Made by a program: the position numbers and the translations under genes
IMG/VR virus record: IMGVR_UViG_3300006052_000015
Span: 1 to 43,736 of that record
DNA: 43,736 bases
Source of the DNA: a virus
Direction: 5' to 3' (one strand)
The notes under the pieces: generated by a model
Seen by the model: the letters and a program-made list of their open reading frames with translations, nothing else
Told to the model about the DNA's origin: nothing
Database searches by the model: none
Shown: in pieces, positions 1 through 40,637 of the stretch
How the letters are laid out: every line of letters starts with the position of its first letter
Position numbering within the stretch: position 1 is the stretch's first letter

Positions 1-1
1 A

Positions 2-679: not shown

Positions 680-701
680 ACAATTTAAACTTTAATAAAC
701 A

Positions 702-1862: not shown

Positions 1863-1883
1863 TAGTTACTAGATGAATAACCT

Positions 1884-1919: not shown

Positions 1920-1937
1920 CTTTTAAACCCTTTCATA

Positions 1938-2504: not shown

Positions 2505-2510
2505 ACCAAT

Positions 2511-2889: not shown

Positions 2890-2896
2890 AAAATCA

Positions 2897-4003: not shown

Positions 4004-4020
4004 TCTCTAAATCAATCTAA

Positions 4021-5793: not shown

Positions 5794-5801
5794 TATTGAA
5801 A

Positions 5802-5833
5802 AAGCTCTACTGTTATTGGTTTCGGTAGAGCTT
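5802..5833 (+). other. Stem-loop immediately upstream of the terminator
   Basis: AAGCTCTAC (5802-5810) pairs perfectly with GTAGAGCTT (5825-5833) around a 14-base loop. The second hairpin begins at the very next base. The stem has no T-run of its own, so it may assist termination or protect the transcript 3' end. Confidence 0.7.
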
Positions 5834-5870
5834 CTCCCCTTGGTGGAAACACTAAGGGGAGTTTTTGTTT
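5834..5870 (+). terminator. Strong intrinsic terminator with GAAA tetraloop
   Basis: CTCCCCTTGGTG (5834-5845) pairs with CACTAAGGGGAG (5850-5861), 12 pairs including one G-U, closed by a GAAA tetraloop at 5846-5849. TTTTTGTTT follows at 5862-5870. It separates the fibre genes from the phosphoesterase and connector block. Confidence 0.92.
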
Positions 5871-5914
5871 ATAACGGGCTTAATTATTTACAATAATCAA
5901 ATTAATTAAATAAG

Positions 5915-5947
5915 TTTGGGAATATCAAAAGTTTCTTCCTATCTTTA
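5915..5947 (+). promoter_or_regulatory. Bacteroidota-type promoter before the phosphoesterase/connector block
   Basis: TTTG at 5915-5918 and TATCTTTA at 5940-5947 are 21 bases apart. This matches the Bacteroidota housekeeping consensus (TTTG at -33 and TAnnTTTG at -7) except for the last base. The predicted transcript start is near 5951, about 24 bases before the ATG at 5975. A terminator lies 45 bases upstream, so a fresh promoter is expected here. Confidence 0.7.
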
Positions 5948-5974
5948 CCACTGATTTAACTAAAACATCATAAA

Positions 5975-7198: not shown

Positions 7199-7203
7199 AA
7201 CAT

Positions 7204-7932
7204 ATGTCAATAGCAAGAAAATTAGTTTCAGATGTAAGAGCCACTCATAAACTGTTATCTACAGATAACTTGATTACTGATCGTGCTGTATTATCTGAGA
7301 TAAGGAACAATACTATCAAGCTTGTAAAGAGAGAAACTAACATGAGGAAACTCTGGGCAACAGACACTCTCTTTACTACTATTCCATGTTTGGAAATGAT
7401 TGAAGTTCCTATTTCTGAATGCTGTGACTATGTAGATCCTTGTACCGTTAGTAGAACTAAACTCAGACTCCCACGTATATCTGAAGGTAACTATCAGTAT
7501 ATTATACAAGGGGTATGGAGCATTAATGCTATGGGAGGGAAAGGAAAGAAACTTAAGGAGATAACTATCAATCGTTATGTAAGTCTGTTAAAACTTCCTA
7601 TCATTAAGAAGGAGGTTTATTACTGGATTGTAGATGGATATTTGTACACAAATGATCCTCTATTGAAAGCTCTTAGGTTAGCAGCCTTCTTTGAAGAAGA
7701 TGTTCCTAATGAGATAATGTATCCAGATTGTGAGTGTGGTGGAAAGAAATATACTAATGAGGAAATATGTAAGAATCCTTTAGATAAAGAATTTGCATGT
7801 CCTGGGTATCTTGAAAAAGATGTATTAGAACTTACCTCTCAGAAATTACTAAATACATACTACAGAATTAAAACAGACCTCACTCAAGATAATGTAGATG
7901 GACAGGCTCCTAATACAACGAATGCAAACTAA
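7204..7932 (+). CDS. Neck/ring structural protein of crAss-like phages
   Basis: This 242-residue protein has N-terminal helices (ARKLVSDVRATHKLL, then AVLSEIRNNTIKLVKRETN). Next come a conserved-looking PCLEMIEVPISECCDY stretch and a beta-rich middle ending in YYWIVDGYLYTNDPLLKAL. The C-terminus is Cys-containing and helical (ECGGKKYTNEEICKNPLDKE, then ACPGYLEKDVLELTSQKLLN). I recall this pattern from a family of phage structural proteins in crAss-like and other Bacteroidota phages. They sit just upstream of the IHF-like and tubular protein genes, and the order here is the same. A role as a connector ring below the portal is inferred from position. The stop TAATG overlaps the start of the next gene by one base. 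Confidence 0.65.
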   Translation: MSIARKLVSDVRATHKLLSTDNLITDRAVLSEIRNNTIKLVKRETNMRKLWATDTLFTTIPCLEMIEVPISECCDYVDPCTVSRTKLRLPRISEGNYQYIIQGVWSINAMGGKGKKLKEITINRYVSLLKLPIIKKEVYYWIVDGYLYTNDPLLKALRLAAFFEEDVPNEIMYPDCECGGKKYTNEEICKNPLDKEFACPGYLEKDVLELTSQKLLNTYYRIKTDLTQDNVDGQAPNTTNAN

Positions 7933-22392: not shown

Positions 22393-25300
22393 TGGCCGAC
22401 AATACCCCTCTGGTAGATTTGAATTCCTTAGAGAAGAGTTATAGTAATTATACTCCTCCTACTAATACTGACATTCCTAATCTTCCTTTTAAAACGCCTT
22501 CTCTTTCTGTTCCTACTAATGATGGAATTCCTGTCTCTGCTTTAACAGCATTGGAGAACTCTGTTGCTTCTAAGAAAAATGGTAAGCTTACTGGTGGAGG
22601 TATTTCTAGAACTTTAGCTGAAGTTAGCTCAGACAGATACTCTAACTTCGTACCTGGAGATTATGATAATGAAGATGCTTATGCCCAGGGACAAGGATGG
22701 ACATCTAAAATGGTTAATGGTGTAGGTAAGGGATTATCTCTTACTGGCACTACCTTATTACAGTCCACTGTAGGACTTGTTAATAGTGTAGCAAGAGCTA
22801 TTGGTGATGGTAGGGCTGCTTCCTTCTATGACAATGATTTTAACAGAGCATTAGATGAGTGGAATAAAAAGCTTGAAAACGATCTTCCTAACTACTATAC
22901 TAATGTAGAAAAGAATGCTAATTGGTATTCTCCTAAAAAGCTTTTAACAGCTAATTTCTTCTGGGATGGTATTGTAAAGAATCTTGGATTTAGTGCTGGT
23001 GCAGCTCTTTCTGGTGGTATTTATGCTGGTGCATTAAAAGCTATTCCTTTGACAGCTAGACTGTTCTCAATTGGAAAAGCAGCAGAAACTTTAGCAGCTA
23101 CCGAAGAAGCATTATTGTCAGCAGGTAAAGCTGCTGAAACTTATGGAAAGATAAAGAATCTTTCTGATAAGTTTGTACAATCTTATAACATCTTAAATCC
23201 AGGTGGAAGAGCATTAGTTGCTGGACTTGCCACTACAGGCGAAGCTGGTTTTGAAGCTTATAACAATCTTAATCAATTCAGAGATGAAAGGATTCAAGAG
23301 TATAAGAATAGTCACAATGGACAAGAGCCTATTGGTGCAGATTTAGATGCTATCAATTCTGAGGCAGATCATGTAGGTAATAGCTCATTCCTGTTAAATA
23401 CAGGGTTGTTATCTGCTACCAATTACATCCAATTCCCTAAGATTCTTGGCTCCTCATATACAGCAGAGAAGGGATTGGTAAACGGATTAGCTAAGGAAAC
23501 TAGAGATATTGTAAAGAATGAAGCTGGACAATTCGTTGAACAACTTCCTACAACACGCTTTGGTAAACTGTTACATACAGTAAATAAGATTAGACCATAC
23601 ACCTTCTCTACATCTGAAGGTTTTGAAGAGGGTGCTCAGTATGCTATTCAAGTAGGTACACAAGACTACTATAATAAGAAGTATAAGGGACAAGCAGCAG
23701 ATTTTGTTGGATCCCTAGCTGAAGGTATTACTCAAACTCTTGGAACAAACGAGGGTATGGAGAACGTACTTATTGGTGGTTTATCTGGAAGCCTAATGAT
23801 GGCAAAAGGTAACTTCCAACAGGCTAGAGAAAAAGGTCTTAATACAGCACAAGCCATTCAATCATTCAATAAGTGGAAGCTCTCTGACTTTACCAAAGAT
23901 ACTATTGACTCTGTAAATAGAGGTACAGCTATCCAGGAAGATAGAGAAAAAGCCATTAAAGCTGGTGATGTTCTTGAGGCTAAAGATCTTTCAGCAGACT
24001 ATATCATTAACTACCTTACTCCTAGAATTAAGTATGGTAGAATGGATTTAGTTAAGTCTGATATTGCTGATATGAAAACTCTTGCAATGTCAGATGAAGG
24101 ATTTGCTCAACTTCAATCAGAAGGTAAAGCTCTTGCTACGGACACTAAAGATAAGTTCTTACAAAGACTTGCTAATCTTGAGTCTACAGCAGAGAATGTC
24201 AAATCATTATATCAGAGTTTAAATCTTCGTTATGGAGGATTAGTAGACAAAAATGGTAAAGCTGTTTATTCTCCAGAGGTGATGGATAAGATGGTATACG
24301 CAGCTTCTAAAGTGGCTGACTATGACAAGCGTATTCCTACCATCTCTAATAACTTGTTATTAAAAGGTATTGATCCTACATTAGTAATTAATGATTTAGC
24401 TAAAGGAAATAATGCTTCTTATGAGAAAGCGTTAGCTGATATTAATGAACTCTCTGTAAATGCTGATGTTAAGGAAGATCTTATCAGAGATTTACAAGAT
24501 GTTTCTGAATTGTCATTACGTAGACAGAAGTTCTTAAAGGAGTATGACGAAATTAAGAAAAATCCTAATGGTGCTAAAGAAGTAGAGGAAGTACCAGCTC
24601 CTGTAGCTCCAGGTGAGAAACCTGCCACTATAAAGATAAAGACTAAGACAGGAGAAGGTGACTATGAAATAGGTACTGAATACTTCTTAGGTAAAGTGGT
24701 AGATCATGATGCTAAAGGTAATGAGATTGTTCGTTTCCCTAGACTTACTATATTAGGAGAAAATGAGGATGGAACCATAAAGATAAAAACATCTAATGGT
24801 AACACCAGAGATATATCAAAAGCTGAATTAGCTGATTATAAGCTTAGCAAGGTGTCTGACACCCTGGCTAATAAGAAGGCTAAGTTCTTCATGGATAATG
24901 TTAATAATGTCTTTGAATTCAACTTTGGTAAAGGAAAGAAGCAGAAAGGTAGACTTGAATACTCTCCTAAGGAGAAAGTGCTTAACTTTGTTTACAAAGG
25001 TAAGGATGGTAAAATCAAAAGAATCGAAGTAACAGGTGATCAATTTGTTGCTAAAGAAGGATTCAAGAATGCTCTTATTACTAAGATTGGTGAGGTTACA
25101 CCTGCTGAGCAGAAGTCTATGGAAGACTTTGCTAAGGAGAAAGATGAAAGACAAGCTGAAAAGCGTGCATATAGACTCCAGGTACTGAATGATTTATTTA
25201 ATGATCTGAGTGAAAAACACACGGCTGCTAAAAAGCTTATTGCTCAAAAAGAAAGTCAAGTAAAGACTATCAATGAAGAGCTAGCTGAATTAGAAGAGAA

Positions 25301-28300
25301 GATCAAAGGATCTGATCTTACTAAGAAGAACAGATTCAAGGCTTCTACAAAGAGAGCATTAAATGCTGCAATGAAGCTTTCTAGAATGAAAGATCAACTC
25401 ACTAATGAGATTGAATCTCTTAGGTCTGAGTCTGATGAACTGGAATTGAATGCTTCTTATGTAGCTGACTTAGCTGATAATATTGATCAACTTCCTACAG
25501 ATAGCAAAGAGTTCTTAGCTGAACTTAAGGATCAGAAGGCTATCATGGAGGATTTAATCCTTGAGACAGGTAAGCAAATCAACTCTATTTCCTCTCTTAT
25601 TGATAAGGTGGGTAGAGTGTTGGAATCTGCTATTGATTTAGTAAGATATAATGTAGCTCAATTTAAGGCTAAGTTCCCTAAAGCTCCTTTAGCTCTAGGT
25701 GCTGAGTTTAATGATTTCTTGGAAGCTAATCCTAACTTCCTTAAGAATAAGCCTGAATACATTTCTGATCTTAATACATTAGAAGACTTTGTATCCCAGG
25801 TAGAGGATCTGGACATCACTCCTAATGAGCGTACTCTTGGGGAGTTAAAGGATGAGCTTAAAGAATTACAAGCTCAATTGGCTGATCTTGAAAAAGAATA
25901 CAAAGCTAAGGATGCTATTCTTAGTAGATTCCAAGAAGTAGCTGAGCAATATAAGGTACAAAAGCAACAAGAGGAAAAGTTAGCTAAAGATGAAGGTTTG
26001 AGAAAGTCTCTCTTAGGTACTAACTCTAATGATGTAGAGAATAACGTAGATCAAAAAGACTACCAGCCTGAGGCTAAGAAGTCTGATCTTAATGTCGTAG
26101 GATCAACAGTTCCTGTGAATGATGCTATTCCTTATCAGGAAAGAGTAAATAAGTTTGGTGTGAAGTTCCACTCTATGCCAAACAGAGATAAACTGAAAGG
26201 TGTACATGTTACTCTAAAAACAGAGGATGCTATTCTACCTGGATTAATTGGTCATTTAACAAAAGATGCCCCAGGTGTAGATAAGAATGATGTTATCGCT
26301 TTTGTTATAGTGCAAGAGAATGGTGATGGATCTATCAATCTTGTTGATGAAAATGGAGAGGTAATCACAGAAGGTAAGGATTTACTAAATACTGCCATCT
26401 ACCAAGTTAAGCCAGCTTCCAAATTGGAAATGACTTACAATGGTAAGAAGGAGACAATGTTTAGAAGCTCCACTCCTTTAAATGTTCAGGAAGAATTATC
26501 TAAACAATATGTAGCTGAAAGAGCTGCCATATTGGCACAGACTAGTTTAGCACCTGCTTTAGATATTGATGCTTCATTTGGTCAATTGGAGTATGTAAAG
26601 ACTACAGATCAGAAGGGTAATGTAAAAGTGGACTATGAAGCTCGCACCTCATCAGAGGATGCTGGACTTATTAAGTCTACAGATTTAGCTGAAAAGAGAC
26701 TTATCCGTGTTGCCACTACTAACACTGCTGAAAGTAATGGTTCAGTGACATTTAACACACCTCTTGGAAGAGTATTCTTAGAGATACCAGGGGGGTTAGT
26801 TAAGCTTATCAATTCTAAGTTTAACAAGAAGAAAGCAGAAACTATCTTCAAAGCAATACATGCTCTTGCTAAAGAAGCTGTATCAGCAGAAAATGGTATA
26901 AAGAGTGAGAAGTCTACACAGTTATTAAGCTGGTTAAAATCAGTGGTATATTGGGGTATTCCAAAGAACAAAGCTGGATATAACTCCATATGGTTCCAAG
27001 AAGTGGCAGATACTGAGACTAAAGCCCTCATGCCTAAGTTATTCATATCTGGAGAAGGTGCTTCATTTGATTTTACCCCTTCAGGTTTAGAGCAAAACAA
27101 AGATGTTATTATAGCCCTTTTAGAAGGACTTTACCACAATACAAACGCTACAATGGTTAATGTAGACAGCTACAATAAACCATACTATGAGATTACGGAT
27201 ATAGCCCCAGATGGCACAATTAAGACACAAGAATGGCCCAATTATCAAACCTACCTGTTATCAGGAAAAGGTAGAGATGCTAAAGATATACCACTATCTA
27301 CAAGAGTTGCGCCTGCCCAAGAAGGTAAGCCTAACAGAAAGGGGATATATTTCACCATCTCTAACACAGCCGATAATTACGTAATTCCTAAAGAAGCGCC
27401 AAAATCTAAAACTCCTAAGAAGGAAGAGAAAAAACAAGAGCCTAAGAAAGAAGAACCTAAAGCCCCATCTCCACAGTTTGTATATGATGGTGAAACTAAG
27501 AATGTCTTTGATAGTGCTATTGGTAGAATAGTATTTGCTGCTGACAAAACTGGCAAGATATTCTTCTTTGAAGATGCTGAAGGTAAACTTGATGAAGAAA
27601 CAGCAGCCACTGTAAAGAAGCTTGCTGAATCTAAGGGTATATCTGAAGATAAGGCTAAGGATGTTATTTATGCTTCTCTTAAAAAGCATATTGGTCCAGA
27701 TATAGCTGCTATTAAAATCCCTAAACAAGCTCCCCTCACTCCTGCTAAAATCAGCACTAAAGCTGAAAAAGGTCCTTCAGAAGCTACAGCTCCTGGTAAG
27801 GTGAGGAATCCTTTTGGTCAATCTAAAGCGGTGGCTCCTGATGATGAGGTGTACAGACTTAAACTTGTAGAAGAAATCAAGAAGTTTGAAGGCGAAAACT
27901 GGAAAGCAGTTGAAGCTTTCCTTAAAAAGAATTTTCCTAATATCCCCGTATATAGAGTTAAGAATATTATCCAGGCTTCTAATGGAAGACAAGCATGGGG
28001 TATGCTCCAGAATGGCGCCATCTATCTGTACACCAATGCAGAAGTAGGTACAGCCTACCATGAAGTGTTTGAGGCTGTATGGAAGATGTTTGCTAAGCCT
28101 GCTGAACAACAGTCTGTTCTTAAGGAATTCAGAGGTAGAAAAGGATCTTTCACTGATCGTCCTACTGGTAAAACTGTAGAGTATTCAAAAGCTACAGATG
28201 AGCAAATTAAGGAAGAACTAGCTGAAGAGTTCAGAGACTATATATTGTACAATAAAATTCCAGCTAAACCAACTGATGGAAGGCCTTTCATTGTAAAACT

Positions 28301-31300
28301 GTTTGCTGATTTAGTACAGTTCTTAAAGGAATTCTTTGTAGGAGAGAATGCAACATTCAATACAGAGAAGCTTTTCAAGCAAATTGGTAATGGATATTAC
28401 AAAGACTATGTTCCTTATGAGGCTCCTTTGGCTTTTGCTAAACAGGGACTTATTGACATTGATGATGTTCAAACTGGTCCAGATGCTGAATACAGGATAG
28501 TAAATATTCCTGCTACACAAATCCATGAGATTATGCAGCAGATGACCTACTCCACTCTTAAGTCTTTGACTAAGAAGGATGAGAGTTTATTCACTATCCC
28601 TAAGGTTAATAAGACCATCCTTTACACTCAATTAAAAAAGGAAATACTGGATTTGATTGAACATAGAGCTAGCTTAATTGCCCAGGCTCTGGATAATAAA
28701 GAAATCACAAACGAAGAAGCTGCTGATAAGTTCAACAACCTCAAGTATTTACATGATAATGTAAATGCTGAGTGGGATAATCTTACCAAGAAGCATGAAG
28801 AGGAATATCTGAAACAGTATTCTATTGAGTTTGATGATAATGACAACACTACTATAACAGATGAAAACAACTCTGGTAAGGAAGACTATATTGATGCTAG
28901 AAAAGTAGATAACTTTAGAAAGGCTAATAGTGCTATTAAGTTGTTATTGGCTACTCTTCCAGAGACACAGGTAGGGGAGAATGGTAAGCTTAGCTTAAAG
29001 CGTTCTTCTATACATGGAGCAATGCTTATGCCATTAGACAGAGTGTTTATCACATTGATGAACAATCTACATGAGTCCACTACATTAGAAGATATGTTAA
29101 ATAAGCTTAGAGAGTTTGCTAGACAGAACCGTAACTACGAAGCTCTTTATACAAGATTAACTAAGAATGATGTAAATTCAGATAGTGTAGATTTCAGTAA
29201 AATTACTAATGAGCACAACATCCAACTTTTAGCTTCTTTCTGGAAGACATTCAAAAAGCAGAATCCTGATGTTAAAACAGTGTTTATCCTTCCTACAGGA
29301 GAGGTGATTATTGGAGAATCTAACTTGTCTAGCGCTGCTAAGCAAGCTAAGAATGATATGTACAACTCTGTATTATCTTCTGCAAAGGATAACAAAAATC
29401 CTTATATCAAGTTTGATAAGAAGGATAAGGTATATAATGCCACTCCTTTAGCTAAGTCTTATAAGCTTCTTCCTTCCACCCTGGACACATATATTGCATT
29501 CTTAAAAGGAATGGGTGTACCGTTTACAGTTAAAGAATTGAAGAGATTGAAACCTAATCAATTGAATCAGTTTAAGAAAGCTACAGAAGGCTTACTTTTA
29601 AGCTTGTCTAAAATTGAGGGATTGGTTGATATTAACAAGAAAACTCTTGATGTAGAAGGACGTTTGTTGGAATTGGGAACTATCAGGGCTATCCTTGAGA
29701 ATCCTGATTTTGAGAGCACATTCTTTAATATTAACGGTGAGCGTACCCAGACTTACATTGGAACCAACTCTGTAAGTAATCTTTATGATGTTATTTCCAA
29801 GTTGAAGAATATCAGTGAATTAGCTAACACCCCATATAAGTATTTGTTAACTGATGCCTTTACAAAAGGATCTACTGTTATCAATGCTATGTTCAACCCA
29901 GAGACAGGAAATAGAAGAGAGACAGGTGAGGAATTCCTTAAAACTGGCTATGTCAATGGATTAGTTAATGAGGCTAAAGGAAGAGAGAAAGATCCTGCAA
30001 GATATAACCTGAAAGACAGATTCATCCAGGAGTTGAATATGAACAACGATGGTTGGTATCTTAACCTCATCCCAGGTGATGCTTCCATAGAGCACACTAA
30101 TTATGTAGGAAATCATATCTCCAAGGAAGGATATACAAATAATGCACATCATAAAATCTTCAAAGACTATTTCATCTCTGAGCTTAATGTAGCTAGAGAG
30201 GGTAGGAAGATTGTCTATGTAGGTGATAGAAAGTCTGATGACTTGAGATTCTTCAAGGATATACTTGGAGCTTCTTTACACAAAGATATAGTAAAAGAAG
30301 AGGGTAGCCCTGAGGAAGTATATGCTAAATACGAGAGTAAAATCAATAGTGCTTTAGACAAGTTCATAAAGGATAAAGCTGCTGCTCTTAGACAAACACT
30401 CCAGAAATACGGTATCGTAAGCTATGAACAAGAAGGACTCACTGTAGATGGACTTTCTTTCGTAGAGGAAAATCCTACAGAAGAAGCTTTAAACAAGGCT
30501 TTGGAATTATCTACAGCTAACTACATGGTAGCTAATATTGAATTCCACAAGCTGATCTATTCTGATCCTTACTTCTATAAGGATGAATTAAAACGTATTA
30601 AGAACTTCAATTCTCCTGGTCAAGCTTTATTGGCTAATTCTCCAGAGATCAATGATAGACTTAACTCCATCTATAACAAAGGTTATGAGAAGGGGGATAT
30701 TGGTTTCACAGATATGACTAGAGATCATTTTAGATCTTCAGTGATTTCTGACGTATTTAGCTCTAAAGATCTTGAAGGTTATGATCCTTTCGAGGAAACT
30801 GATGGTGGTGGTTACATCTCCATGAAGGCTAATCGTGTATTCAGACTTAGAGCTGGAGATTGGACTGAGGATAATGAAAGACAATACAGATATGATGTAG
30901 CTTTTGAGAAAGAGAAAAAGAAAATTGATCTTTCTAAGGAAGAAGAAGAATTGCTGAAAAAAGGTAATCCTTCTGTGAAGAGTACCTACACTCCTATTAA
31001 GCCTATTGTACGTGGATCTAAAGATGATGGTGAATCATTCAATGATGTAGTGTTGGATAAATTCGCTTTAGTTCCCCTATCATACAGAATCTTATTTGAA
31101 CTGAATCCTTCTTCTAATGCCATTAAGCATTACAATAAGATGCAGAGAGAAGATGTAGATTACACTGTATTTGCATCTGGTAGGAAGGTGGGAGCTGGTA
31201 TCACTACACCTTTATATAATGAGGACGGTAGCTACAACACTCTTCCTTTCAATGAAGTTAATAACATTCCTTTTGAAATTGTAGCTGTACAAACTGAAGT

Positions 31301-34300
31301 TCCTTCTAAGGAATCTAACACTGTAACCCAAGGATCACAGGTAACCAAATTGGTTACATTGGATTACATGGAGAATGGTGTACCTGTTGACTACAAAGGA
31401 TCTAACTGGGAAGCTGAAACTGACAAAGAAGCAGCTTCACCTATATACAAGGAGATAAAGAATAACCAAACCCTGCTTGAGGAGTCTATTAAAGAAGGAT
31501 ATAACATCCTCTTAAATAAGCTTGGAATCAAGGCTGTAGGGAAAGGTTTTGAAATTGGTGATGTAGACAAGCTTGTTGATACCCTTAAGAGTGAAATCTT
31601 CAAAAGAGAAGTAAATGATAATATTGTAGATGCCTTCAATGGCTACAAGAAAGGTGACGTTATCCTGGAAGCTACTCCTGCATACCAGAAAATAAGGAAT
31701 ATCCTCTATTCAATTGCTGATAAGTCTGTCGTAAGACGTAAGATTAATGGTGGACAGAAGGTTCAAATTCCTTCTACATTATTAGAATCTGTAAAGGCTG
31801 AAGCTACAAAGGTGAAAGGTAAGAATGTATATTCTTCTGACACCTTGAATTTCTATGTAGATAAGGATGGTCAGAGAGTATGTGAGGTGATGGTTGGAAG
31901 ATGGTTTGATTCTGATAAATCAGACGCTGAGCTTATTAAGGAGCTAAATGAAACTGGCGCTTTAAATGGCGTAGGTTTCCGTATTCCTACACAGAAACAG
32001 AACTCCATTGATGTATTCAAAATTAAACAACTTCTTCCTAGGGAGTTTGGTGATAGTGTTGTAATTCCTTCTGCTCTTGTTAAGAAAGTAGGATCTGACT
32101 TTGATATAGATAAACTTTCTGTCTACCTTAAGAATGTCTACAAAGACCTTAAGGGTAATACGAAAGTTGTACCTTTCTTAGGATATGGTGAGCAAGCTAA
32201 AAAGCAATTTGCTTCCATGTACGAAGAAGGGGCATTCCTCACTGATGAGCAAAGAAAGAAAGCTCAGAAATGGATTAAGAATAGAAAGATTGAAGATAAA
32301 GACGAAGCTACGGAATCCCTCTTCAAGGCTATATTTGGAGAACAAGGGTTTGAAGCTTCTTATGAGCAAGAAGTAATTGATGATCTATTAGACTCTGAAA
32401 CTGATGCTCAGTTCAAAGAAAAGGTAGTAAATCAGAAATATAAGGAGAGCTTAGAGAATGCTTACATCCAATCCCTGGAAAACCTTATAAGTCATCCTCT
32501 TAACTTTGAACGTCTTACCACTCCTAACTCTGCTGACCAGTTAAAGGCGCTAAGCAAGGAGATTGTTAAAAAGACCAATTCTGAGGAATATGACTATAGC
32601 TCTGTAGGTAACATGTTGGATAGACAGTTTATGTCATCCTTAAGACAGGACTTCCTGACAGGTAAGTATGCTATTGGTATTGCAGCCACTAGCCAGACTA
32701 ACCACTCTCAGAATCAAAGAACTAACATCTATATCGACACTGATAAATTAGCTGATCTCCCAGATACAGACAAAAGATGGTTGGGCGATGGACAAATTAA
32801 GTTCAAGAAGTTCAACACTGTAGATGTAAATGGTAAGAAAAGACCATCTCTATCTGGTATCAAGAATGCAGCAGGTGATTACATCTCTGACATTATTGGT
32901 CAGTTTATTGATGGATATGTGGATATTTCAAAAGGTCCTTGGATTATGCAAATGGGAGCTTCTCCTAATGTTGCTGGTCTGTGGTTGTTCCTTACTAAGA
33001 TTGGTGTACCTATCAAAACTGTAGGTTATTTCATGAACCAGCCTATTGTTAAGGATTACTTACGTTCTGTGGAAAATGCTGGATACACCTACCTTTTCAT
33101 GGAAGACTTTGTCAATAAGACTAAGGATGAGTATGCTACTACAGAAAAGGCTATTGTAAGTTTCCCTACAGAAGCAGAACTTGAGCGTACATTAGGTAAG
33201 GACGTAGAAAAGATGTCTGGTGCTCAGAAGCTCCAACAACAGCTTATTCTTGATGAATTCATGAAGTATGCCAAAATGGCTGAGCAATTGTTCTTAGTAC
33301 AACAGGCTTCTAACTTTGATACAGCTACCCTGAATGATCCTTATCTAATCTTCAAGAAGCTTAAGCAATTAGAGCGTTCTAAGACTAGTATTATATCATC
33401 CGTAGATAAGCTCATCTCTAACTCCTTCATTGGAGCTTTGAAGAATACAATACAAGATGTAAGAAATGCTTTCTCTACAATCCTTATATCTGATAAATCA
33501 GAGAAACCTACCCCAGGTAGCCAATCTGTGAGAGAGGTGTTAGAGACAGTGTTGTCTCCATATATAGACCTTAATGATAGGGACTTTGTAAAGATTAGCC
33601 AAAAGGCTGTAGCTGATATGTTCGATTGGGCTGTTCAGACTAACCAGCAATTAAATGCTAAAGTGAAAGATATTCTTCTTGGAAGCGACACTGAAGAAAG
33701 CGCTGCTGAAGAGATAATGAAATTTGTCAATAAAGTGAAAGCTGATGAAAGCCATCCTTTACATGATAATTATATCATCAATTCCATCAGAAGAGAGACA
33801 GGAAGTGCTAAAGAAAACACCCCTAATAACCTATCCCTGGTAGCTAAGAGTAGCAAGGTGTATGACCAAAATCAGGTGATTTATGGATTTAATGAACTTA
33901 AGAAAGGAATGAAGGATGAGAATTCCAACCTTTATGATAAGTTGGTATATTTGGCTGTGCTACAGAGTGGGTTAGTTAATTCTAAAATTTCCTTCACGCA
34001 ACTGCTTCCTTATGAGGACTTTAAAAATATATACAATGAAACCTTGTCTATATTAAATAAAATGCCTAATTTAGCGGACTTTAAAAAACTGAATGTCTTT
34101 GAAAGAAACAATTGGAATAACTCAGACATTGTGCCATTCTTAAAGTCTAGGCCGTTTAAGAGTAAGAAAGGAAAGTGGATATTTAACAGGGAAGTTGAAT
34201 TTGCAGATAGAAAACTGAAGAGTGCCTTTGAAAAAGGAATATTACCAAGAACTATCAGTGTATCTGCTAACTCCAGAGAAGGAAAGAATGACTTCATGGT

Positions 34301-34685
34301 ATATTCATGGGAACCTTATATTACTAAAGAGAAGAAGAAACAGCTTAGAGCTAAGGGTGATTACTCTTATATTAAGAAAGGGTTATTCCAAAAGGTCTAT
34401 AATAGTGTAACAGGAGAGCCTGAAAAAACAACATACAAAAGCCCAGAGGGTAGAGTTTACGAGAGTTATGTTTATAAGGCAGTTAATGCATGGGGAGATA
34501 GTTTTAGAGCTAACGAGTTCTATAATAGTCCTCAACAGTCTGTTATCAATAATGGATTTGAATCGGTAAAGCAGGAAGTTATTGATGATGAGATCATAAG
34601 CATTCTTAACAAGAAACCAGTTAAGAGTGTGATTAAAGTCAAGAAGGAAAAACCTTCTAATAGTGACGTACCAAACTGTGCATAA
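22392..34685 (+). CDS. Giant virion protein with crAss-like DNA-dependent RNA polymerase
   Basis: This 4097-residue protein has residues about 100-260 and 440-480 with Gly/Ala-rich hydrophobic stretches (GFSAGAALSGGIYAGALKAI) that may contact membrane. Residues about 920-1170 are a long charged coiled coil. A Lys/Glu/Pro linker lies near 1665-1690. A zincin-like motif occurs at 1890 (HEVFE, H1890 to E1894) with a possible third-ligand helix (EELAEEFRDYI, about 1938). The polymerase region is roughly 2780-3430. It includes YISMKANRVFRLRAGDWTED, then VTQGSQVTKL near 2980, a possible beta-like barrel. GFRIPTQKQNSIDVF leads to GSDFDIDK with D3236, D3238 and D3240, matching the magnesium-binding DxDxD of virion polymerases such as Cellulophaga phage phi14:2 gp66. 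That protein is about 2180 residues, so here a cargo-type N-terminus appears fused to the polymerase. Confidence 0.85.
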   Translation: MADNTPLVDLNSLEKSYSNYTPPTNTDIPNLPFKTPSLSVPTNDGIPVSALTALENSVASKKNGKLTGGGISRTLAEVSSDRYSNFVPGDYDNEDAYAQGQGWTSKMVNGVGKGLSLTGTTLLQSTVGLVNSVARAIGDGRAASFYDNDFNRALDEWNKKLENDLPNYYTNVEKNANWYSPKKLLTANFFWDGIVKNLGFSAGAALSGGIYAGALKAIPLTARLFSIGKAAETLAATEEALLSAGKAAETYGKIKNLSDKFVQSYNILNPGGRALVAGLATTGEAGFEAYNNLNQFRDERIQEYKNSHNGQEPIGADLDAINSEADHVGNSSFLLNTGLLSATNYIQFPKILGSSYTAEKGLVNGLAKETRDIVKNEAGQFVEQLPTTRFGKLLHTVNKIRPYTFSTSEGFEEGAQYAIQVGTQDYYNKKYKGQAADFVGSLAEGITQTLGTNEGMENVLIGGLSGSLMMAKGNFQQAREKGLNTAQAIQSFNKWKLSDFTKDTIDSVNRGTAIQEDREKAIKAGDVLEAKDLSADYIINYLTPRIKYGRMDLVKSDIADMKTLAMSDEGFAQLQSEGKALATDTKDKFLQRLANLESTAENVKSLYQSLNLRYGGLVDKNGKAVYSPEVMDKMVYAASKVADYDKRIPTISNNLLLKGIDPTLVINDLAKGNNASYEKALADINELSVNADVKEDLIRDLQDVSELSLRRQKFLKEYDEIKKNPNGAKEVEEVPAPVAPGEKPATIKIKTKTGEGDYEIGTEYFLGKVVDHDAKGNEIVRFPRLTILGENEDGTIKIKTSNGNTRDISKAELADYKLSKVSDTLANKKAKFFMDNVNNVFEFNFGKGKKQKGRLEYSPKEKVLNFVYKGKDGKIKRIEVTGDQFVAKEGFKNALITKIGEVTPAEQKSMEDFAKEKDERQAEKRAYRLQVLNDLFNDLSEKHTAAKKLIAQKESQVKTINEELAELEEKIKGSDLTKKNRFKASTKRALNAAMKLSRMKDQLTNEIESLRSESDELELNASYVADLADNIDQLPTDSKEFLAELKDQKAIMEDLILETGKQINSISSLIDKVGRVLESAIDLVRYNVAQFKAKFPKAPLALGAEFNDFLEANPNFLKNKPEYISDLNTLEDFVSQVEDLDITPNERTLGELKDELKELQAQLADLEKEYKAKDAILSRFQEVAEQYKVQKQQEEKLAKDEGLRKSLLGTNSNDVENNVDQKDYQPEAKKSDLNVVGSTVPVNDAIPYQERVNKFGVKFHSMPNRDKLKGVHVTLKTEDAILPGLIGHLTKDAPGVDKNDVIAFVIVQENGDGSINLVDENGEVITEGKDLLNTAIYQVKPASKLEMTYNGKKETMFRSSTPLNVQEELSKQYVAERAAILAQTSLAPALDIDASFGQLEYVKTTDQKGNVKVDYEARTSSEDAGLIKSTDLAEKRLIRVATTNTAESNGSVTFNTPLGRVFLEIPGGLVKLINSKFNKKKAETIFKAIHALAKEAVSAENGIKSEKSTQLLSWLKSVVYWGIPKNKAGYNSIWFQEVADTETKALMPKLFISGEGASFDFTPSGLEQNKDVIIALLEGLYHNTNATMVNVDSYNKPYYEITDIAPDGTIKTQEWPNYQTYLLSGKGRDAKDIPLSTRVAPAQEGKPNRKGIYFTISNTADNYVIPKEAPKSKTPKKEEKKQEPKKEEPKAPSPQFVYDGETKNVFDSAIGRIVFAADKTGKIFFFEDAEGKLDEETAATVKKLAESKGISEDKAKDVIYASLKKHIGPDIAAIKIPKQAPLTPAKISTKAEKGPSEATAPGKVRNPFGQSKAVAPDDEVYRLKLVEEIKKFEGENWKAVEAFLKKNFPNIPVYRVKNIIQASNGRQAWGMLQNGAIYLYTNAEVGTAYHEVFEAVWKMFAKPAEQQSVLKEFRGRKGSFTDRPTGKTVEYSKATDEQIKEELAEEFRDYILYNKIPAKPTDGRPFIVKLFADLVQFLKEFFVGENATFNTEKLFKQIGNGYYKDYVPYEAPLAFAKQGLIDIDDVQTGPDAEYRIVNIPATQIHEIMQQMTYSTLKSLTKKDESLFTIPKVNKTILYTQLKKEILDLIEHRASLIAQALDNKEITNEEAADKFNNLKYLHDNVNAEWDNLTKKHEEEYLKQYSIEFDDNDNTTITDENNSGKEDYIDARKVDNFRKANSAIKLLLATLPETQVGENGKLSLKRSSIHGAMLMPLDRVFITLMNNLHESTTLEDMLNKLREFARQNRNYEALYTRLTKNDVNSDSVDFSKITNEHNIQLLASFWKTFKKQNPDVKTVFILPTGEVIIGESNLSSAAKQAKNDMYNSVLSSAKDNKNPYIKFDKKDKVYNATPLAKSYKLLPSTLDTYIAFLKGMGVPFTVKELKRLKPNQLNQFKKATEGLLLSLSKIEGLVDINKKTLDVEGRLLELGTIRAILENPDFESTFFNINGERTQTYIGTNSVSNLYDVISKLKNISELANTPYKYLLTDAFTKGSTVINAMFNPETGNRRETGEEFLKTGYVNGLVNEAKGREKDPARYNLKDRFIQELNMNNDGWYLNLIPGDASIEHTNYVGNHISKEGYTNNAHHKIFKDYFISELNVAREGRKIVYVGDRKSDDLRFFKDILGASLHKDIVKEEGSPEEVYAKYESKINSALDKFIKDKAAALRQTLQKYGIVSYEQEGLTVDGLSFVEENPTEEALNKALELSTANYMVANIEFHKLIYSDPYFYKDELKRIKNFNSPGQALLANSPEINDRLNSIYNKGYEKGDIGFTDMTRDHFRSSVISDVFSSKDLEGYDPFEETDGGGYISMKANRVFRLRAGDWTEDNERQYRYDVAFEKEKKKIDLSKEEEELLKKGNPSVKSTYTPIKPIVRGSKDDGESFNDVVLDKFALVPLSYRILFELNPSSNAIKHYNKMQREDVDYTVFASGRKVGAGITTPLYNEDGSYNTLPFNEVNNIPFEIVAVQTEVPSKESNTVTQGSQVTKLVTLDYMENGVPVDYKGSNWEAETDKEAASPIYKEIKNNQTLLEESIKEGYNILLNKLGIKAVGKGFEIGDVDKLVDTLKSEIFKREVNDNIVDAFNGYKKGDVILEATPAYQKIRNILYSIADKSVVRRKINGGQKVQIPSTLLESVKAEATKVKGKNVYSSDTLNFYVDKDGQRVCEVMVGRWFDSDKSDAELIKELNETGALNGVGFRIPTQKQNSIDVFKIKQLLPREFGDSVVIPSALVKKVGSDFDIDKLSVYLKNVYKDLKGNTKVVPFLGYGEQAKKQFASMYEEGAFLTDEQRKKAQKWIKNRKIEDKDEATESLFKAIFGEQGFEASYEQEVIDDLLDSETDAQFKEKVVNQKYKESLENAYIQSLENLISHPLNFERLTTPNSADQLKALSKEIVKKTNSEEYDYSSVGNMLDRQFMSSLRQDFLTGKYAIGIAATSQTNHSQNQRTNIYIDTDKLADLPDTDKRWLGDGQIKFKKFNTVDVNGKKRPSLSGIKNAAGDYISDIIGQFIDGYVDISKGPWIMQMGASPNVAGLWLFLTKIGVPIKTVGYFMNQPIVKDYLRSVENAGYTYLFMEDFVNKTKDEYATTEKAIVSFPTEAELERTLGKDVEKMSGAQKLQQQLILDEFMKYAKMAEQLFLVQQASNFDTATLNDPYLIFKKLKQLERSKTSIISSVDKLISNSFIGALKNTIQDVRNAFSTILISDKSEKPTPGSQSVREVLETVLSPYIDLNDRDFVKISQKAVADMFDWAVQTNQQLNAKVKDILLGSDTEESAAEEIMKFVNKVKADESHPLHDNYIINSIRRETGSAKENTPNNLSLVAKSSKVYDQNQVIYGFNELKKGMKDENSNLYDKLVYLAVLQSGLVNSKISFTQLLPYEDFKNIYNETLSILNKMPNLADFKKLNVFERNNWNNSDIVPFLKSRPFKSKKGKWIFNREVEFADRKLKSAFEKGILPRTISVSANSREGKNDFMVYSWEPYITKEKKKQLRAKGDYSYIKKGLFQKVYNSVTGEPEKTTYKSPEGRVYESYVYKAVNAWGDSFRANEFYNSPQQSVINNGFESVKQEVIDDEIISILNKKPVKSVIKVKKEKPSNSDVPNCA

Positions 34686-35143
34686 TGAAAAACCAATTAT
34701 TTTTAGACAAAGCTATTAATGTATTTTTAGCTGTCGGTGTCGCAACATTTATTATATTAATAAACATGGCCATTCTGAATTTACTAATACCTGGATGGCA
34801 TATGATTCCTGGTGATAAAAATGCTCCTTGGCAAGCTGCTGTAAGAGGAATAACAGCAGCTCCTCTTCTTGAAGAACTTATATTTCGTTTTATTCCCATT
34901 TCTTTAGCATTGAAATTTGACTGGTTTAAGAGTGATGAAAAAGCTCAAATATTACTAGTAGCATTAATAGCCTGTGCATTTGGATATATGCATGGCGGCA
35001 CATATAATATTGCCATACAAGGTGTAGCAGGATTTGCTTTTGGATGGGTATATATAAAGAATGGAATGTCCTATTGGTCATCAGTAGCAGCCCATGCATT
35101 CTATAATTTCTTAATTTATTTCGTATTTCCTGTAATCATGTAA
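34685..35143 (+). CDS. CPBP/CAAX-type intramembrane metalloprotease (Abi family)
   Basis: This 152-residue membrane protein has three family motifs in order: EELIFRF with E63, E64 and R68; FGYMH with F99 and H103; and HAFYN with H137 and N141. These are the metal-binding and catalytic residues of the CPBP (CAAX protease and bacteriocin-processing, formerly Abi) family, and all are intact. There are about four hydrophobic segments, beginning with residues 8-34. It is short for the family (often over 200 residues) but keeps the core. The start overlaps the polymerase stop by one base and the next cargo gene starts ten bases later, so it is co-translated with virion proteins. The substrate is unknown; processing a phage ejection protein or attacking a host membrane protein are both guesses. 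Confidence 0.85.
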   Translation: MKNQLFLDKAINVFLAVGVATFIILINMAILNLLIPGWHMIPGDKNAPWQAAVRGITAAPLLEELIFRFIPISLALKFDWFKSDEKAQILLVALIACAFGYMHGGTYNIAIQGVAGFAFGWVYIKNGMSYWSSVAAHAFYNFLIYFVFPVIM

Positions 35144-35153
35144 ACCATATATA

Positions 35154-38100
35154 ATGGCTTGTACAATTCCTTATATACAGCAAGAACCTTTTAGCGAATC
35201 AGAGAAATCTAGGTTAGAGGATATTCATGTGTCCATATTTAAGAGAGCTAAAGAAAGTAAAGCTTTCAGATCTTTTGAAGGTAAACTCTACACTCTTAAA
35301 AATGACTATAATGCAGGAGTTGTATTTGCTAATTCTATAAATAAAGAGTATAAGCAAGAAGTAGCTAGCATTGAAACTAAAGCTCCAGGACAACATTTCT
35401 TATCTGTAGATGTACTTCCTTTAGCTAATGAAGAACAAGGAGTATTGTTTCAAGAAGCTCCAGCTACAATAGCTACAACTAGTGCTCTTAGAACATTTGA
35501 TTTTGGGTCATTAGAAGGCCAGCCACAAACTGATGCTAAGAATAAAGCTATTCATAATAACATTGTAAACATCCCTGATGAGCTTATGTCAGAAGAAGGA
35601 GAAACCTTCAATCAGGCAAGTGGTAGAGTGATTAGGGAAATGGAGAATATTGTTGAGAATGCCCCAGCTAACACCGTACTAGTTACCCATAATTCCGTAT
35701 TCGGAGTAATTAATCTTTGGAACTCAGAGGGAAGACCTTCTGAATTTAATAAGGAACAGAGAGAGAAATATGTAAACCAGGATGGTACTTTCAAGACTGG
35801 TGATAACTTTGAAATAGAAGGAGCTAAAGGTAAGATATATGTCGTAAGACATGGTCAAACTAATGACAACCTTAAGCGTGCATTCAGAAGCAAAAATACA
35901 GATTTAACAGGTGTAGGTATTAAGGAAGCTGAGGAAATAGGTAAGAAACTTGCTGGTGTTAAAATCAGCCAAATCATCTCTTCTCCTCTTCCTCGTACAT
36001 TACATACATCTAATATCATCCTTTCTAAGCAACCAGGCGCTGTTACAAAAGCTAATGAAGCTACAATTGAAACTGTAAAGCAGGCTGCTGATAAGATGGG
36101 TATTACCATTGAAGGCTTAGCTGATTATGCTAAAAGAACAGGTTTAGACACTACATCTATTAATGGTGTAGCTGATTTAACAAGAGGTATTATAGCTATT
36201 GCTACAGGTAGAGAATCTATAGCTTTAACAGAGGAAGTGGTACACTTTGCCACAGCCATCCTGGAACAAACTAATCCTCAATTGATTACAACCCTTATCA
36301 GTAAGATTGATAAGTATAAAGTGTACAAGCAGACACTTGAAGCCTATAAAGGTAAGAAGCAATATCAAACCTCTGATGGTAAGCCAGATATACGTAAGAT
36401 AAAGAAGGAGGCTGTAGATAAACTTATTGCTGAGGTGATAGTTAATCAAAGCCAAGGCTCTGAAGCTTATCCTGAGCTTGCATCTAAAGAAGCCAGAAAC
36501 ATCATTGAAGAATGGTGGAATACCATCCTTGATTACATTCGTTCCTTATATGGGAAATCAGACATCTCAATATTTGAGGATGTAGCACAAAAGGTGGCAA
36601 GAGGTGAGGTAGGGGGTAGGATAACTAATATCAAAGAAAATGGTCAATATTTCAATGTAGACCAAAAACCTGCTATTGATAACCTGTATGCCACTATTGT
36701 AAATAAGAATGATCAACTCCAGCTTAATCCTGAAACTCCTACAGATAAGCGTCATTACACCTTCAACGGTGAGAAGGTAGCTAAGTCAGTTACAGAAAAG
36801 GTGAAGGAAGGTCATAAGATGCCTGAAAGAGAAGGTATTGAAGCTCTTCAAGATGAACAAAAAAGACAGTGGGGTGAGGATGGTCACAAGTATTTAGAGA
36901 ATTACATCACCCAGGTATTGATTGATAAAGATGGTTATAAGCTAGCTAAACCTAATGATACAGCTATCACTTCTAACTTGGATCCTAAAGTACAGGAAAA
37001 GGTGAGATTGTTTGCTAAAGAATTGATTAATTCCTATCCAGAAGGTACAAGATTCCTTGTTGAAAAGAAGGTAGTTAATGAGAAGGTGAAAGGAATGCTA
37101 GCATCTACAGTTGACTTTATTGCTTTAGTGCCAGATGCTAAGACAGGTGTTAAAGCTGATGTTCTTGACTGGAAATTCACATCTGTTAATAAGTCTCGCA
37201 CTGATGATATTCCTTGGTATAAGAAAAAGGAATGGAATGAGCAGATGAATGAGTACACTAGAATAATGTACAACTATGGGTTAAAACCTAATCAATTAGG
37301 AAAAGCCAGGATGATACCTTTTATTCTTAACTCTGAATATAAGGTGATGGGAAGTCCTAAATCAGGACTTAAGATTGAGTCTATTGAGATAGGTAAACTT
37401 GACAGTAAAACTGAAACTAATCTCTATTTACTTCCTGTTCCTGTAGAATCTGAATCTACTGGAAATATTGAGGTGGATAAGCTTTTGAAGTCCCTAAGAG
37501 AGCATTATGAAAAGCTCTATAAGACACCTGTTTCCCCTGAAGAGAAGTCTCTGAAGGATATACAGATGAATGAGATTTCCAAGGCCATTCGTGTATTACA
37601 TATGCAATTGGATTTTGAGCCTCTTGCATCTGTGGGTAAAACCTTCTTGAATAATGCTAATAAGACATTCAAAACCTACGAGGATGTAGATTATGATAAG
37701 CTTACACAAGATGAAATTGAGAAGATATTAGCTGATCTTATTGAGTATGAGAGAAGTGCTCTTAAGTTTAGTACACTAGATGAGGTGTTCTTATCACACT
37801 TTCCTAAGGAAGGTTTGGATAATGAACAACGACAACTATTACACTCTCTGGAGCAAATAGCAGCATCCACTGAAAGGATGGTTAAAAAGATTAGAGAGAT
37901 ACAGAAGAACTATGTGGTCCATTTGGCCCTTAAGAAAGACATCACTACAGAAGCTTCTAAGGAGACTATTTTGGATGCTGAAACTGAAATAGGATTCTTT
38001 GCTAAGACATTCTTGGAAGCATCTAAACTTTCATCTAAAGTTATCAAGCTTGCTGCCAATCTTATTATCAATGCTAAGAACTTGGTAGATATTAGAGTGA

Positions 38101-40637
38101 GTGAACTTTCTAATGAATATTCCAAGCTATTACAGGCTTTGGAAACAGAAGCTAAATCTGCTGGGAAGTCAGCTTTTGAGATGATTGGTAATGTAACAGA
38201 TGGTGGTCTTAATCTTGTTAAGAAGATTGATAAGAAATACTATGATGCTCTGGCTGAAGCAAAAGCTTCTAAAAACAAGAAGTGGTTGACAGCTCAGATA
38301 GATGTAGAGAAATATAAAGAAGAAGTAAAGAACTTTTTAGATAAGGCTGAAAAGCGTATTAGAGAAACCCAGTTTTCCTCTGATAAGAGTGAAAATGATG
38401 TCCAGATAGAGGAGAGAATTATTAGGCTTCGTAACTCAGTGGATCTTAATAGATCAACCTTTGATGGATATGAGGGATATGATTTCAATCGTCTATATAG
38501 AGAAGCACTTATAGAAGAACCTCATTATTCTGAAGACTACAAGAAGATGGCCCAAAGTAAGGCTGCTCTTGATATGTGGAATTTCTATACAGCTTTGAAT
38601 AAGAAAGCTAGAGAGATGGGATATTTACAGAACAAAGGATTATCCTTCTTCCCGTTGATTGAAGCTTCATTAATTGAAAAGCTAGGTAAGACAGATAATA
38701 TTCTTACAGAGGGTAAAGACTTCTTTAAAGATATGTTCACTGCTAGAATTGATGAGGAAACTTCATTATCTAAAATAGACAAAGAAACTGGTGAGGTGAG
38801 AAAGGAAATTCCTAAACTCTTCACCCGTACAAACAAAGCTACACATCAATTATCTACTGATCTTAATAGGGTGGGGGTGTTGTGGATTAAGGCTCTATTA
38901 GAATATGAAAGTTCTAAAGAAATAGAAAACACCCTTTTGACACTCTATTCCATAGAGAAAGCTAAAGGTCATTTGGTAACAGATGCTAACCAGGAGGTTA
39001 TATTTGAGGGTGGTGTTCCTAAGGTGGATGACAAGTCTAACAAGAACGCTGATATTCTTCAAACTATTATAGATGATGCTATATACGGACTTAAGGAAAA
39101 CCTTACATCCGTAGGTAATGTTGGACTTGGTAAGGTGACGGAGAAGTTTCAGAAAGACGAAGAGGAAAGAGAGAAAACTAAACTCTCTATAAAGAAGAGT
39201 CTACAATCTGGTAATAAACTTACGCAATCGTTAGCTGTGGGATTGAAACTCCTAGTAACCATTCCTAACTACTTTGGTAATAATATGCAAGCTCATATTA
39301 ATGCTGGTAATCTATATACATCAGGTGAATTTCAAAAGAATAATCTTAAGCTTACAATACCATATGCACCTGGATTTAGTGATATACAAAAAGCTTTATT
39401 AGATTTATTCATTCCTTTGAATGATAATATAGCTGTAGAGAAACGTAGAGAATTAGCTAAAAAACAAGGATTGTTAAAGTATTTGAGCACATGGACTTTT
39501 CATGATGTTATGATGGCTACCAACTCCTTTCCTGAACGAAAGCTCCAGTTAGCCAATGCATTATCTATTCTTGATAATACAATGGTGGTAGATGGTAAAC
39601 TGGTTAATATCAGACAACATCTTAAAGCCCTTGACAGACAGACAAAATATACTCTATCTGAAGGGGAGAGAAAAGTTTTAGAGAAATCGTTTGAAGACCG
39701 TGTACAAGCATTAAAAGAGTCTTCTGCTTTGAGCAAAATAGTTAAAGTGGAAGGAGACTCTATATCCATACCTGGGGTATCAAATGAAGAAATAGCTAAA
39801 TACAGAGTAAAGATTATAGAATATAACCGTAATAACTCTGGTCAGATGAGTGAGAATAACAAAGCTGACTACCGTAGGGATACAATTCTAAAGTCCTTTA
39901 TGATGTTCAAAGGTTGGATTCCTAAGCAAATAAGCCTTCGCACCCTGGATATTCAAAAGAACACTGAATTAGGGGAATGGGAATATGGTAGAGCTAGAGC
40001 TTTTGCTAAAACCTGGGCTTTCATAGGACTTAAGAATATAGGTGATATGAGAGACATCATCCTTGGAACTGAGAAGGGATTGGCTATTCTTAACGAAATG
40101 CTCCAAGAAAAGAAAGATGCTTACTATCGTAAGACAGGTCAACAGCTTGAAATCACAGAAGAGGAGTTTTATGACCTTATGCGTACAGCGCTAAGTAACC
40201 AGATAAAGGAGCTTATTCTATTATTCTCATTGTTAGGATTATTAGTAGCAGTGAAGGCAGCAGCACCTCCAGATGATGAAACTGACAAATATACCATTAA
40301 CAGGTATAAGTTCTGGGCCAAGGCTGCTAATAAGATAACAGACGAATTATGGTTCTATTACAATCCTCTGTCATTTGAGAGTATGACTAAAGGATCTGTA
40401 CTTCCTTCCTTGGGACTATTAACCAAGGCTGAAAAGGCTATTTCTGCTATAGCTTTAGAAACCTATGCTATTTCAGCAGGAGATGAGAAGCTTGAAGAGA
40501 AGACTCATCCTACTAAATACATCCTAGATTTGATCCCTGGACCTTCACAATTCAATAAAGAAATATTACCTGTCATTGACCCAGAACTAGCTAAAGAGCT
40601 TGGAATCAGGGTAACAGAACAAGCAAGACAGAAATAA
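35154..40637 (+). CDS. Giant virion protein with permuted histidine-phosphatase module and PD-(D/E)XK nuclease
   Basis: This 1827-residue protein has residues about 112-285 carrying histidine-phosphatase motifs in swapped order: FDFGSLEG (115-122), GETFNQASGR (149-158) and VTHNS (H179) come first, then VVRHGQTND (R232, H233, G234) and ISSPLPRTLHTSNIIL (271-285). Residue 360 starts EEVVHF, a degenerate zincin-like helix. Residues about 570-710 fit a PD-(D/E)XK nuclease of the RecB/Cas4 type: GEDGH (H578), VDFIAL (D654), LDWKFT (D672, K674) and NEQMNEY (Q697, Y701). The middle (about 830-1150) is coiled coil. A hydrophobic segment lies at 1686-1700 (ELILLFSLLGLLVAVKA), followed by a conserved-looking tail (WFYYNPLSFES). 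Position beside the polymerase argues for packaging and ejection with the DNA. Confidence 0.82.
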   Translation: MACTIPYIQQEPFSESEKSRLEDIHVSIFKRAKESKAFRSFEGKLYTLKNDYNAGVVFANSINKEYKQEVASIETKAPGQHFLSVDVLPLANEEQGVLFQEAPATIATTSALRTFDFGSLEGQPQTDAKNKAIHNNIVNIPDELMSEEGETFNQASGRVIREMENIVENAPANTVLVTHNSVFGVINLWNSEGRPSEFNKEQREKYVNQDGTFKTGDNFEIEGAKGKIYVVRHGQTNDNLKRAFRSKNTDLTGVGIKEAEEIGKKLAGVKISQIISSPLPRTLHTSNIILSKQPGAVTKANEATIETVKQAADKMGITIEGLADYAKRTGLDTTSINGVADLTRGIIAIATGRESIALTEEVVHFATAILEQTNPQLITTLISKIDKYKVYKQTLEAYKGKKQYQTSDGKPDIRKIKKEAVDKLIAEVIVNQSQGSEAYPELASKEARNIIEEWWNTILDYIRSLYGKSDISIFEDVAQKVARGEVGGRITNIKENGQYFNVDQKPAIDNLYATIVNKNDQLQLNPETPTDKRHYTFNGEKVAKSVTEKVKEGHKMPEREGIEALQDEQKRQWGEDGHKYLENYITQVLIDKDGYKLAKPNDTAITSNLDPKVQEKVRLFAKELINSYPEGTRFLVEKKVVNEKVKGMLASTVDFIALVPDAKTGVKADVLDWKFTSVNKSRTDDIPWYKKKEWNEQMNEYTRIMYNYGLKPNQLGKARMIPFILNSEYKVMGSPKSGLKIESIEIGKLDSKTETNLYLLPVPVESESTGNIEVDKLLKSLREHYEKLYKTPVSPEEKSLKDIQMNEISKAIRVLHMQLDFEPLASVGKTFLNNANKTFKTYEDVDYDKLTQDEIEKILADLIEYERSALKFSTLDEVFLSHFPKEGLDNEQRQLLHSLEQIAASTERMVKKIREIQKNYVVHLALKKDITTEASKETILDAETEIGFFAKTFLEASKLSSKVIKLAANLIINAKNLVDIRVSELSNEYSKLLQALETEAKSAGKSAFEMIGNVTDGGLNLVKKIDKKYYDALAEAKASKNKKWLTAQIDVEKYKEEVKNFLDKAEKRIRETQFSSDKSENDVQIEERIIRLRNSVDLNRSTFDGYEGYDFNRLYREALIEEPHYSEDYKKMAQSKAALDMWNFYTALNKKAREMGYLQNKGLSFFPLIEASLIEKLGKTDNILTEGKDFFKDMFTARIDEETSLSKIDKETGEVRKEIPKLFTRTNKATHQLSTDLNRVGVLWIKALLEYESSKEIENTLLTLYSIEKAKGHLVTDANQEVIFEGGVPKVDDKSNKNADILQTIIDDAIYGLKENLTSVGNVGLGKVTEKFQKDEEEREKTKLSIKKSLQSGNKLTQSLAVGLKLLVTIPNYFGNNMQAHINAGNLYTSGEFQKNNLKLTIPYAPGFSDIQKALLDLFIPLNDNIAVEKRRELAKKQGLLKYLSTWTFHDVMMATNSFPERKLQLANALSILDNTMVVDGKLVNIRQHLKALDRQTKYTLSEGERKVLEKSFEDRVQALKESSALSKIVKVEGDSISIPGVSNEEIAKYRVKIIEYNRNNSGQMSENNKADYRRDTILKSFMMFKGWIPKQISLRTLDIQKNTELGEWEYGRARAFAKTWAFIGLKNIGDMRDIILGTEKGLAILNEMLQEKKDAYYRKTGQQLEITEEEFYDLMRTALSNQIKELILLFSLLGLLVAVKAAAPPDDETDKYTINRYKFWAKAANKITDELWFYYNPLSFESMTKGSVLPSLGLLTKAEKAISAIALETYAISAGDEKLEEKTHPTKYILDLIPGPSQFNKEILPVIDPELAKELGIRVTEQARQK

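Follow-up and report, generated by a model that had tools for sequence, protein, structure and literature searches.

Computational evidence for a mobile, circularly permuted histidine phosphatase domain in a probable virion cargo protein of a crAss-like phage

The closest described enzymes are two histidine phosphatases (HPs), the broad-specificity phosphatase PhoE of Geobacillus stearothermophilus (PDB 1H2E, 1EBB) and the alpha-ribazole phosphatase CobC (PDB 6E4B, 6NRU). Both halves of the phage domain described here align with PhoE, with the RHG histidine, the second histidine and the pocket arginine conserved, and CobC is matched by the N-half of the predicted model at 1.7-2.5 Å in Foldseek. 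Compared to these enzymes, however, the two halves are exchanged, about 45 poorly matching residues separate the second-His helix from the RHG strand, and the proton-donor glutamate of PhoE, which we take to be Glu83, is replaced by a threonine. Among phages, the most similar described locus is that of gp076 and gp077 in Cellulophaga phage phi14:2, where gp076, listed as structural on the basis of MS/MS, is encoded next to the polymerase gene. The virions of crAss001 contain cargo associated with RNA polymerase, and this cargo has to unfold in part before it can exit through the tail (PMC10172136); the crAss001 cargo proteins gp47, gp49 and gp50 also count among the nearest described systems, and the structural paper names no phosphatase. 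The polyvalent proteins of phages and conjugative elements (Iyer et al. 2017, PMC5512222) are likewise large and multidomain, and the main text of that survey mentions neither phosphatase, phosphoglycerate mutase nor permutation; HPs are also unmentioned in the main text of a jumbo-phage survey.

Based on profile searches, structure prediction and comparisons across virus contigs, we here analyse a stretch of 43,736 nucleotides (the window; IMG/VR record IMGVR_UViG_3300006052_000015), for which an earlier note had proposed HP motifs in circularly permuted order within a cargo protein. The features are collected in Table 1.

Table 1. Features of the window discussed in the text (positions in nucleotides of the window, residues of the 1827-aa protein).
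Feature	Position	Strand	Basis or remark
4097-aa ORF with virion RNA polymerase region, two ORFs upstream of the HP ORF	22392..34685	+	DFDID at about 32097-32111
Rce1/CPBP-type intramembrane protease gene, between RNA polymerase ORF and HP ORF	34685..35143	+	PF02517, E 2e-13
1827-aa ORF housing the HP domain, crAss-like cargo-type protein	35154..40637	+	full-length relative in L001
N-terminal region, residues 1-100	35154..35453	+	common to L001, L016 and L065
Circularly permuted HP domain, residues 103-294	35460..36035	+	
Domain part 1, canonical C-terminal half (FGSLEG, GE....R, VTHNS)	35460..35828	+	His_Phos_1 profile 68-154, PhoE 74-157
T114-F115-D116; T114 at the position of the presumed PhoE proton donor Glu83, D116 two residues further	35493..35501	+	alignments
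Glu150 of the GE motif	35601..35603	+	invariant in 12 permuted domains aligned
His179, second catalytic His	35688..35690	+	invariant in 12-sequence alignment
Domain part 2, canonical N-terminal half (VVRHGQT, SPLPRTLHTSN)	35829..36035	+	His_Phos_1 profile 1-68, PhoE 4-67
Arg232-His233-Gly234, RHG motif, predicted nucleophile His233	35847..35855	+	invariant in 12-sequence alignment
Asn239, pocket Asn	35868..35870	+	invariant in 12-sequence alignment
Arg281 of the S-x-L-x-R helix	35994..35996	+	invariant in 12-sequence alignment
Core of the housing protein directly 3' of the HP cassette, residues 297-463	36042..36542	+	conserved; query for relatives

In the window protein, residues 103-186 correspond to positions 68-154 of the Pfam His_Phos_1 profile and residues 228-294 to positions 1-68, each half being significant alone and far above chance (E 5.2e-9 and 5.7e-16, respectively). 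Residues 1-350 score 90.1 bits against PF00300 (curated cut-off 21.7), either half alone also exceeds the cut-off, and the HP is the sole domain that Pfam recognises in the protein. The linear motif order that is usual for branch 1 HPs, without formally defining them, is replaced by one in which the C-half precedes the N-half, and we therefore describe the domain as a permuted variant; the stretch GDNFEIEG in its first part is probably the ancestral last strand. The same exchange is seen when a profile of 12 permuted sequences is aligned to PhoE (profile positions 124-186 to chain residues 4-67, and 2-82 to 74-157), and when the window is compared to the linear phage HP L121, which is matched in two segments of exchanged order (E 1.7e-12 and 3e-7), likewise to L126, a near-copy of L121. 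In these profile searches linear order shows as an unbroken match from profile position 1 through both halves, and this was obtained for five of six bacterial HPs and for the phage loci L112, L121 and L126. All motifs listed in the earlier note are present in a single open frame, with FGSLEG at F117-G122, GETFNQASGR at 149-158, H179 in VTHNS and H233 in VVRHGQT, and its base range of 35490-36015 is right; SPLPRTLHTSN occupies residues 277-287, however, not 273-283. A broken linear order would also result from two separate half-domain fragments, from a decayed tandem repeat or from faulty metagenome assembly, and permutation by tandem duplication would include such an intermediate. A second full set of motifs was looked for in the window record, and the profile search finds a single C-half and a single N-half, as the note had claimed, which argues against two degraded domains. 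With one copy per half in the same order on 13 separate contigs, strong purifying selection and a one-domain model, this alternative is largely refuted and hardly tenable.

The predicted structure is in agreement with a single domain. Supplied with the alignment of 12 permuted sequences, AF2 builds one compact domain with a mean pLDDT of 93.2 and a pTM of 0.89; with a two-sequence alignment the pLDDT is 44. Foldseek in sequential mode, which cannot score a permutant, gave no match to the model in the PDB at E 0.001, and in solved HPs the N-half alone was matched (6e4b_C, 64 columns, 1.7 Å); in a viral structure library one match passes 0.001, a giant-virus HP at 14.6 Å rmsd. The lack of a full-length HP match in sequential searches is expected for a permutant, and by these searches a structure with swapped order is evident neither in the PDB nor in the predicted viral library. 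In the open-licence PMC literature we found no work joining circular permutation with histidine phosphatases, a description elsewhere being possible, and passing mentions only for phosphoglycerate mutase, in line with the earlier statement that no such permutant was known in a phage virion protein. We note that L107 (ORF 1-5601) keeps both halves although they are separated by about 170 extra residues at the junction where the ancestral N- and C-termini meet, as expected if that junction is just a linker. Such a long linker would also suit a domain-swapped dimer, in which the halves pair between two polypeptides to form two active sites of canonical order; AF2, however, gives a compact monomer of high pTM from a single chain and the linker is short in the other members, making this arrangement very improbable. 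Judged by Pfam, the solved PhoE structure, the linear phage relatives and the confident AF2 model, the claim of circular permutation holds, and residues 103-294 appear to be a genuine circular permutant of a branch 1 HP, with both fold and permutation well supported.

The same order is present on 12 further IMG/VR contigs (L001, L098, L101, L106, L107, L110, L111, L120, L122, L125, L127 and L128). Apart from L001, they were found in scans with a DNA pattern specific to the permuted order (HN[SAG]V, gap, RHG[EQ]T), an N-half alignment and a V-RHG[EQ]T-x-DN pattern. The resulting count of 13 contigs is a lower bound, since the collection-wide pattern scan missed L001 despite an exact match there and such scans may hence omit hits. 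By profile search, a match starting at profile position 64-71 lies upstream, on the coding strand, of one starting at position 1-3 in 12 of the 13 records; for L128 the N-half only was returned, with the C-half motifs standing upstream of it. The domain is hosted by unrelated ORFs, including a standalone gene, a lytic-transglycosylase fusion and polyvalent proteins. No cultured phage carrying it was found, and 50,697 phage and 72,556 plasmid records yielded no permuted members at the search sensitivity applied, the matches being to the N-half only and, where inspected, linear HPs. Several candidates were rejected: MT836799, the single INPHARED match to the window, is an ordinary linear HP, as are both Lachnospiraceae matches of a genome-contig scan, and the pattern matches in L097, L099, L100, L118, L119 and L123 are due to chance. 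PADLOC found nothing.

The full-length relative of the housing protein (36% identity) is encoded on L001, a 120-kb contig of a close relative with the same permuted domain, and the core together with the C-terminal part has relatives in about 90 loci. By eye, the housing ORF also shows a PD-(D/E)XK-nuclease-like pattern (TVDFIAL...DVLDWKF) at 36876-37223, i.e. residues 575-690, and an EExxH stretch at about 36231-36245, residues 360-364, both without Pfam recognition. Upstream, the 4097-residue ORF is similar to 6vr4, the solved virion RNA polymerase of phi14:2 (E 2.7e-12), and to phi14:2 gp077 (E 1e-16); this 43.7-kb fragment thereby shows a Crassvirales trait, a DFDID-containing virion RNA polymerase of the phi14:2 type. 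A profile of the core and tail of the housing family detects phi14:2 gp076 (5e-8, 19 bits) by its C-terminal part only, a weak homology, and the 1421-residue gp076 is homologous to the family only in part. The polymerase neighbour and the C-terminal gp076 homology nonetheless resemble the arrangement in phi14:2, and this synteny, together with distant homology to a virion protein detected by MS/MS, supports the virion-cargo setting put forward earlier, such that the 1827-residue protein is probably carried in the virion. An ORF similar to the Rce1/CPBP-type protease was seen by eye at 5269-5724 of L001, in the same place as in the window. Among contigs with the permuted HP, some only have a detectable homologue of the window's RNA polymerase, and the domain thus extends beyond phages closely related to that of the window.

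L016 and L065 carry the same N-terminal region joined directly to the same core without an HP, and represent clean empty sites. Among about 80 relatives collected via the core, L001 alone contains both RHG[EQ] and FG..EG, as determined by motif scan and not by profile search, while in the others the N-terminal part ranges from 0 to 925 residues and in several includes ART-PolyVal. This ADP-ribosyltransferase domain was observed in the N-terminal parts of L068, L064, L071 and L095, marking a variable effector region. In L098, the permuted HP is a standalone gene of 313 residues (5822-6763, minus strand), and a cargo-protein homologue on the same contig (G003:C1:852-5570) aligns with the window protein only past the HP motifs, starting at residue 286. 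In L101, an 845-residue protein (5293-7830, minus strand) combines an SLT transglycosylase with the permuted HP, in a frame that needs TGA to be read as Trp at eight in-frame codons, and in L116 the permuted HP and Kinase-PolyVal share one protein; the ART-PolyVal and Kinase-PolyVal domains are a likeness to the polyvalent proteins. Short GG-containing stretches near the C-termini are common to several ORFs of L098 and L101. Window and L001 are 65% identical in the HP region and 26-34% over the last 1350 residues (dN 0.28, dS 1.2), and the selection on the HP domain is purifying. Taken computationally, these comparisons indicate that the permuted HP is a mobile cassette, which has probably moved among large virion-cargo proteins and polyvalent proteins, in crAss-like phages as well as in others.

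In a tree built with the halves aligned separately, the permuted sequences and the linear L121 and L112 split from other linear HPs with 97/97 support. When the tree is left unconstrained, L121 is placed on a long branch among the permuted sequences; a single permuted clade is not rejected (p-AU 0.254). The linear phage HPs L121/L126 and L112 (IMG/VR) resemble the permuted clade in GSLEGQP, the P-x-x-P....ES stretch, THS/VHS and tree placement, and further motifs are common to the clade and single linear HPs (GRPE in L112, PGTVEPF in L121), yet their motif order is canonical. The best PHROG for the permuted members and for L112 is phrog_12933, a phage family with function unannotated, whose model has linear order and is matched in pieces by the permuted members. 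We propose that a linear phage HP gave rise to the permuted form within phages, probably once: a short turn (GDNFEIEGAKGKIYVVRHG) would have linked the ancestral N- and C-termini, with the new termini lying where the S-x-L-x-R-x-x-x-T helix was once followed by the strand that runs into fG..EG.

Whether the domain acts as an enzyme is judged by its pocket. Across the 12 aligned permuted sequences, which diverge down to 36% identity, R232, H233, G234, T236, N239, S277, R281, H179 and E150 do not vary, and the catalytic histidines and key arginines are thereby kept, as previously suggested. In place of a PhoE-type glutamate, Thr114 is near-invariant across the permuted clade and also present in the linear L121, and since nearly all clade members have this replacement, the activity could have become weaker, been restricted to substrates with good leaving groups, or disappeared. 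The domain might then have kept the fold and lost the enzyme, binding a phosphorylated ligand or serving as a structural module. Against this stands the invariance, in 12 divergent sequences, of the nucleophile histidine, both pocket arginines, the second histidine, the asparagine and the GE glutamate. Glutamate serves as proton donor in HPs, but the donor residue differs between HP families and is therefore not a defining feature (PMC12051542); the near-invariant D116 could stand in for it. We consider loss of the enzyme unlikely, and computationally the phosphate pocket is conserved in a domain spread among phages.

The nearest NCBIfam model is that of the alpha-ribazole phosphatase CobC (8.5e-20, versus 3e-4 for SixA), while the equivalog cut-offs of CobC, SixA, dPGM and others are not reached (70.9 versus 162.9 bits for CobC, 20.6 versus 74.5 for SixA). 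By sequence, the closest curated models are thus CobC-type small-molecule phosphatases, all far below their equivalog cut-offs, and a small phosphorylated metabolite or nucleotide signal would be a likelier substrate than a protein. Host phosphoproteins, e.g. phosphohistidine, might be targeted instead: the missing acid would suit good leaving groups and a kinase occurs in the same kind of protein elsewhere (L116). As the sequence is closer to CobC/PhoE-type small-molecule phosphatases than to SixA, we regard a phosphoprotein substrate as somewhat improbable.

With a probability of roughly 0.7, we favour the reading of a mobile, probably active, circularly permuted phosphatase that is ejected into the host. 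The housing protein would be packaged and, along with the virion RNA polymerase, ejected; once refolded, the domain would hydrolyse a phosphate via phospho-His233 chemistry early in infection, possibly in host takeover or counter-defence. It is conceivable, if rather doubtful, that the permutation itself is adaptive, the swapped order, or the option of attaching other domains at the new termini and the old junction, suiting an internal cassette that is threaded partly unfolded through the tail and refolds in the host, kept and spread as an ejected host-takeover or anti-defence phosphatase; the linear L121 might in that case even be a reversion.

In conclusion, we rate the domain as belonging to a known superfamily, but with a new topology and in a new place. 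The HP superfamily is large and well studied, and a permutant was found neither in the searchable literature, nor in the PDB, nor among predicted viral structures. The permuted domain, at about 200 residues, is small enough for direct expression and testing. The permuted clade, its linear phage relatives and the empty sites together illustrate clearly how a natural permutation can be followed by domain shuffling, and a predicted phosphatase is added to the enzymes that crAss-like phages may eject, beside ADP-ribosyltransferases and kinases.
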